A stretch of DNA of 64,000 bases from Actinomycetota bacterium (GTDB lineage Bacteria; Actinomycetota; Actinomycetes; Streptosporangiales; Streptosporangiaceae), in contig DAHVDE010000037.1 in assembly GCA_027313705.1 (NCBI GenBank), positions 62,001 through 126,000 of the forward strand. Direction: 5' to 3'. The translations under genes and the position numbers were made by a program. The notes under the pieces were generated by a model, which did no database searches, was not told where the DNA came from, and saw nothing but the letters and a program-made list of their open reading frames with translations. Below are positions 51,283-51,420 of this stretch, in pieces (the stretch's first letter is position 1; every line of letters begins with the position of its first letter).

Positions 51283-51327
51283 ATGATGCGGCGACTGCTT
51301 CTTCGCGGCCGCGGCGAGGCCCGGTAA
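51283..51327 (+). CDS. leuL: leuA leader peptide
   Basis: A 14-codon open frame MMRRLLLRGRGEAR ends at TAA 51325-51327. It has three consecutive Leu codons (CTG CTT CTT) and lies 93 bp before leuA with a terminator-like hairpin overlapping its end. The form resembles the Streptomyces leuA leader. Ribosome stalling at the Leu codons when leucyl-tRNA is scarce should prevent the terminator from forming. Confidence 0.85.
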   Translation: MMRRLLLRGRGEAR

Positions 51328-51352
51328 CCGACCGGTCGGCCCCTCGCCGCGG
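51309..51352 (+). terminator. leu attenuator hairpin
   Basis: CCGCGGCGAGG (51309-51319) pairs perfectly with CCTCGCCGCGG (51342-51352), followed by GGGCTTTG. The 5' arm lies inside the leader peptide, so translation state controls folding. The 22-nt loop holds CCGG…CCGG repeats that could form the alternative structure. Confidence 0.8.
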
Positions 51353-51420
51353 GGGCTTTGCGCTGCCGGCCGGCCGTCTTGGCCAGCACGGCCCCGGCTC
51401 GACGCAGAGGGAGCAGCATC

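Follow-up and report, generated by a model that had tools for sequence, protein, structure and literature searches.

The closest described system is the LEU element of actinobacterial leuA genes, which, in the accessible part of its original description (Seliverstov, Putzer, Gelfand and Lyubetsky 2005, PMC1262725), comprises a leader with a run of Leu codons, a base stem between these codons and the Shine-Dalgarno sequence, and an internal pseudoknot or an alternative hairpin. In that description it stands upstream of leuA and of a single transposase gene; protein binding was favoured as its mode of action. A leaderless, leucine-rich leader peptide, leuL1 (MRFGLLLLSCRGEGL), is described in excerpts of PMC8079986 for leuA of S. 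lividans, and leuA leaders have also been reported, in the parts of the papers at hand, for C. diphtheriae (PMC5784534) and C. glutamicum (PMC4046766), while in M. abscessus the leuA uORF is reported to be ribosome-protected (PMC4974804, excerpts). A translated uORF with branched-chain codons is likewise part of the M. tuberculosis ilvB1NC attenuator, as given in excerpts of PMC13236596, but that system has a Rho-independent terminator with a U-tract, which the leuA element lacks.

The window, that is, the whole 64,000-nt stretch of DNA that was analysed, contains before its leuA gene the same set of features as the LEU element described above, namely a uORF with a Leu run, a potential base stem of 10 bp and a possible pseudoknot of 9 bp, and no obvious terminator. 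The actinobacterial setting was established indirectly, by a genome placed in the window's class (G057) that encodes the S. lividans leader letter for letter. The element of the window has been known in kind since 2005 and is a copy of the actinobacterial LEU element. The leuL1 peptide as given in PMC8079986 is encoded identically at one of our loci (L031), whereas the leader of the window reads MMRRLLLRGRGEAR instead, with three adjacent Leu codons.

This leader ORF occupies positions 51283 to 51327 of the forward strand, on which the other parts of the element and leuA also lie; it has 14 codons, begins with ATG at 51283 and ends with a stop codon at 51325-51327, inside the loop of the hairpin described below. 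Its Leu codons, read directly from the sequence, are CTG CTT CTT (51295-51303), and together with the following base they form the run CTGCTTCTT+C (51295-51304), which provides both the sensor codons and the 5' strand of the base stem, the anti-Shine-Dalgarno. The sequence-only reading had proposed a short leader with three Leu codons before leuA, which is exact and conserved, and had held that annotation would easily miss it at 14 codons, which is likewise supported. A -10-like TATGCT (TANNNT; 51268-51273) ends 9 nt 5' of the leader ATG, a spacing which suggests that the leader peptide is translated from a leaderless mRNA. The leuA gene itself, encoding 2-isopropylmalate synthase, extends from 51421 to 53163 and was identified by NCBIfam (PRK03739.1, 827 bits; TIGR00970, 791.5 bits) and Pfam (HMGL-like, IPMS_D2 and LeuA_dimer domains). 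We took GTG at 51421 as its start; an ORF list gives TTG 51358 instead, but this is just the longest possible reading. An ORF of 342 codons (50174-51202) lies 5' of leuA; its product looks secreted by eye and has no Pfam match at E 0.001.

We searched 60 related genomes with the LeuA protein and obtained a match in 58; the two without one (G050 and G054) are also without the element. Thirty leuA loci were fetched by LeuA protein alone (L001, L006-L034), of which two were uninformative, L009 being cut inside the gene and L021 having only about 50 nt upstream. The leader and the hairpin, hereafter P1, were present in all of the 28 informative loci. A covariance model built from these 28 loci matched in 235 of the 246 sampled genomes of the class. 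A larger set of 89 leuA loci, which includes loci found by the covariance model and is thus not independent of it, was obtained by allowing one mismatch in 8 in the hairpin (a stricter rule kept 79) and by leaving out L009 beforehand and then L021, which has no element, L037, which lacks an N-terminus, and the duplicates L035, L049, L057 and L064. All 89 loci contain the leader, which has 13-21 residues; in 86 of them the distance from the beginning of the P1 arm to the leader stop is either 13 or 16 nt. In 82 of the 89 loci a TANNNT was found 5-10 nt 5' of the leader start that had been chosen, against 0.2% at other positions and 5.5% in shuffles, a count to be read with the caveat that the choice of leader start itself favoured starts with such a site; a leaderless start is thus likely.

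The element with a Leu-run leader was also found before LeuA proteins of another subfamily, at G046:C34:5528-5618 (leader MHTEQLLLRCRDGA), G051:C59:50193-50276 and G049:C51:15076-15182 (leaders read by eye). These proteins are best matched by PRK00915 and TIGR00973 leuA_bact of NCBIfam and are 28-31% identical to the LeuA of the window. Since the element precedes two LeuA subfamilies, it seems to be attached to LeuA function rather than to a single LeuA lineage.

The stability of the 153-nt leader is unremarkable (z -1.09, with 27 of 200 shuffles equally stable), and folding energy alone was discarded as support for the element. It is conservation, and not leader stability, that is the strong evidence for it. 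Hairpin P1 is formed by the arms CCGCGGCGAGG (51309-51319) and CCTCGCCGCGG (51342-51352), which pair perfectly over 11 bp, and the earlier claim of an 11-bp perfect hairpin overlapping the leader was thus confirmed. In 28 sequences, 98.7% of the 308 cells of P1 are paired. Perfect 11-bp hairpins with loops of 3-30 nt are frequent in the window, which holds 14 of them, whereas 20 dinucleotide shuffles gave 1.55 on average and at most 4; for the 600-bp region, 5 of 300 shuffles contained one. Another of the 14, at 53125-53155, overlaps the 3' end of leuA. Covariation in P1 is weak as evidence: 7 of the 11 pairs are invariant across the 28 sequences, one pair is changed on both sides (5 cells), a count of both-side changes reached in 397 of 500 shuffles, and an alignment slid by -3 gave a slightly higher covariation score than the true register.

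A Leu-codon leader peptide and a strong GC hairpin speak for classical transcription attenuation, in which the hairpin at 51309-51352 would be the terminator and a stalled ribosome would permit an antiterminator; moreover, terminators with poly-U have been described for the leuS and ilvB leaders of actinobacteria in the available text of PMC1262725, PMC8079986 and PMC13236596. However, the bases GGGGCTTTG lie directly 3' of the arms, the sequence that follows P1, GGGGCTTTGCG, is without a U-tract, and no terminator-like site was found on either strand in 51100-51500. Within the 12 nt 3' of the hairpin, the T-richest stretch of 8 nt had 5 T in 7 of the 89 loci, 4 in 27, and at most 3 in 55. The S. 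lividans leuA leader is likewise reported to have no typical terminator (PMC8079986, excerpts). We rejected P1 as a terminator, there being no U-tract in the window or in most of the 89 loci, and consider classical attenuation improbable. Of the "complete translation-coupled attenuator" proposed by the sequence-only reading, the Leu leader upstream of leuA therefore stands, whereas the transcription-type attenuator finds no support.

The same lack of an intrinsic terminator-like site in 51100-51500 is in keeping with Rho-dependent attenuation, in which the vacated stretch up to leuA would expose a Rho site that a stalled ribosome or the pseudoknot would block; Rho has been suggested for actinobacterial cys leaders in the part of PMC1262725 available. 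It leaves unexplained, however, the match between the Leu run and its own Shine-Dalgarno region, and we regard it as unlikely. This match is the base stem: CTGCTTCTTC at 51295-51304 can pair with the leuA Shine-Dalgarno region GAGGGAGCAG at 51407-51416, the 3' strand, over 10 bp including 2 G-U pairs, and the stem is present in the computed fold. The mean energy of pairing between run and Shine-Dalgarno region was -15.3 kcal/mol with the own partner and -13.6 kcal/mol with swapped partners, a difference reached in 0 of 200 permutations; for comparison, Leu runs gave -14.3 with 26 control Shine-Dalgarno regions of window genes, and shuffled runs gave -11.6. Own partners were also better than swapped ones among the 28 relatives and among 55 loci whose runs are all distinct (0 of 300 each), although shared ancestry among loci is not removed by swapping. 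The pairing of the Leu run with the leuA Shine-Dalgarno sequence points to control of translation initiation.

Of the 26 unrelated Shine-Dalgarno regions examined in the window, 3 pair with its Leu run as well as that of leuA does, and the stem is stronger than with the median control Shine-Dalgarno region in only 56 of 89 loci. Tuning of the synonymous Leu codons is weak, with P 0.003 for 86 loci and 0.28 for 25 distinct codon strings, and the synonymous choice of the window ranks near the middle of the loci; we set this test aside as support for the base stem, its effect vanishing after thinning.

The pseudoknot would be formed by 9 bp between CCGGTCGGC (51332-51340), in the loop, and the downstream strand GCCGGCCGG (51365-51373). 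Its helix differs in sequence between loci while the pairing is kept (GGCCGGC/GTCGGCC, GACCGGC/GCCGGTC and GATCGGCC/GGCCGATC). In the 89 loci the mean helix score was 6.8, against 5.2 when shuffled, and own partners compared with swapped ones gave 0 of 300 for 89 loci and 4 of 300 for 28 loci. Taken one by one, the loci scored higher than 95 or more of 100 shuffles of their downstream strand in 32 of 89 cases and did not in the other 57; in the window, 8 of 100 such shuffles scored as high. A regulatory protein might bind this pseudoknot, with the leader peptide being secondary. The 2005 report, as far as its excerpts go, argued for such binding from S. coelicolor mutants and the phyletic pattern and proposed orthologues of M. 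leprae ML1624 (PMC1262725). On the other side, the reading frame from a start through the Leu run to a stop is preserved, the stop being at a nearly fixed place, and the Val/Leu/Ile codons found before branched-chain genes (see below) would be superfluous for a protein-only switch; we thus give a protein-responsive element a small chance.

We concluded that the LEU element of the window is probably a cis-acting translational attenuator of leuA. Transcription would begin at or beside the leader ATG. When leucine is plentiful, the ribosome would clear the Leu codons, reach the stop in the hairpin loop and leave, and the freed Leu run would then fold onto the leuA ribosome-binding site, the closed form being held by the pseudoknot. 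When charged tRNA-Leu is scarce, the ribosome would sit on the Leu codons; as these double as the masking strand, the ribosome-binding site would stay open and leuA would be translated.

Partition-function folds of the leader, computed without the pseudoknot, gave a mean probability of 0.60 for pairing between the Shine-Dalgarno sequence and the Leu run, and 0.83 in the window. When the Leu codons were masked in silico, the mean openness of the Shine-Dalgarno sequence rose from 0.17 to 0.33, and masking the stop gave 0.19; in 66 of the 89 loci, openness was greater in the stalled than in the stop state. For the window itself the computed change is small, with an openness of 0.11 when free, 0.19 when stalled and 0.155 at the stop, and pairing of the Leu run with the Shine-Dalgarno sequence fell from 0.83 to 0.26 with the ribosome at the stop, which counts against the model. 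Genetic data on S. coelicolor leuA are quoted in two ways in the accessible text of PMC1262725: in one place leader mutations had some effect that was not consistent with classical attenuation, and elsewhere mutation of the Leu codons had no influence on regulation. The latter, if so, would speak against translational attenuation.

We further found that the genome of the window harbours a second copy of the element, at G000:C7:37584-37680 on the minus strand (L036, L132, L141), which scores 40.2 bits (E 1.9e-6) with the leuA-derived model and 85.2 bits with a second model, among whose training sequences that copy is included. Its leader, MRRFVLILSSRSGT, is of the Val/Leu/Ile type, and its P1, CCGTAGCGGG/CCCGCTACGG, differs from the other 13 sequences in both bases of two pairs. 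It is followed by an ORF of 45 codons with the motif DRRDNGG (G000:C7:37351-37485, minus strand), and then by leuC, leuD, ilvB, ilvC, leuB and cimA on the same strand. The run from leuC to cimA is apparently one operon headed by the second element, although ilvB and ilvC are some 560 nt apart.

We fetched 60 stretches, which are part of the listed matches and mainly each genome's weaker ones; with L036 these make 61 loci. The first of leuA, leuB and leuC downstream was leuA in 34 loci, leuB in 15 and leuC in 6. The remaining 6 (L100, L106, L109, L129, L130 and L131) had no match to any of the three and were taken as false. Leaders before leuB mix Val, Leu and Ile codons (MRQVLVLITCRGGA, MRFVLILRCRDGA and MRHIFVLRCRGGAS); the 5 leuC leaders besides L036 are Leu-rich, and two of them also contain Val. 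Two loci, L102 and L104, have the same small ORF downstream but no Val/Leu/Ile leader, and were excluded from the second model; in L104, leuB lies 1.6 kb downstream of the element match.

The second model, which also picks up leuA elements, matched in 38 of 41 genomes. Eighteen Val/Leu/Ile loci were read from it, 5 of which repeat earlier loci. A DRRDNGG-like small ORF is present in 16 of these 18 and in 12 of 16 earlier loci, together 23 of 29 distinct loci. In all of the 5 genomes of the window's genus, a Val/Leu/Ile element stands before the small ORF and leuC (L140, L141, L143, L146 and L148), and in another genome (G019) such an element heads leuB-ilvE-cimA. The small proteins, of about 30-75 residues, form an unannotated family with the DRRDNGG-like motif, situated between Val/Leu/Ile elements and leuB or leuC (L092, L105, L136-L156 and others). 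Searches of Pfam and NCBIfam with four of them gave no credible family; a sub-threshold Pfam hit to RAP80_UIM (E 0.0093) was taken as chance. A base stem can be drawn in some loci of the Val/Leu/Ile class, and overall it shows no significant advantage over swapped partners (reached in 45 of 500 permutations for 13 loci; of 14 listed, L072 was dropped for a missing start pattern).

None of the 4,227 Rfam families, described leaders, riboswitches and T-boxes included, matched in the window at its gathering score, 51200-51450 gave only four weak and unrelated matches, and L036, L072, L031 and L006 had no Rfam match; a plasmid similarity search also returned no match. The LEU element in the excerpts of PMC1262725 precedes leuA and one transposase gene, whereas here related copies were also found in front of leuC and leuB, in part with leaders of the Val/Leu/Ile type; those excerpts contain no mention of leuB or leuCD. 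No published version before leuB or leuC, or of the Val/Leu/Ile type, was found in the literature searched, which included the available parts of PMC1262725, PMC8914203, PMC8632094 and PMC4833913 and does not prove absence.

We are inclined, with slight preference, to see in these loci a modular switch whose sensor codons are at the same time the anti-Shine-Dalgarno, the Leu type standing before leuA of two subfamilies and before leuC, and the Val/Leu/Ile type heading runs of branched-chain genes, usually with the DRRDNGG protein as first cistron. This small protein may itself be a regulated product, and the sister copy suggests that the switch acts on a larger part of the pathway than the one described so far.

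For the window, the plausible reading as a terminator-attenuator is replaced by a different, probable mechanism, in which one sequence would serve as both codons and masking strand. This dual role is directly testable, and it could explain the effect seen in S. coelicolor that does not fit attenuation. Almost every genome sampled from the class has a member of the element family, which is without a matching Rfam model. If the proposed switch is true, its Val/Leu/Ile relatives would widen it from one gene to the branched-chain pathway and would draw attention to an unannotated small protein.
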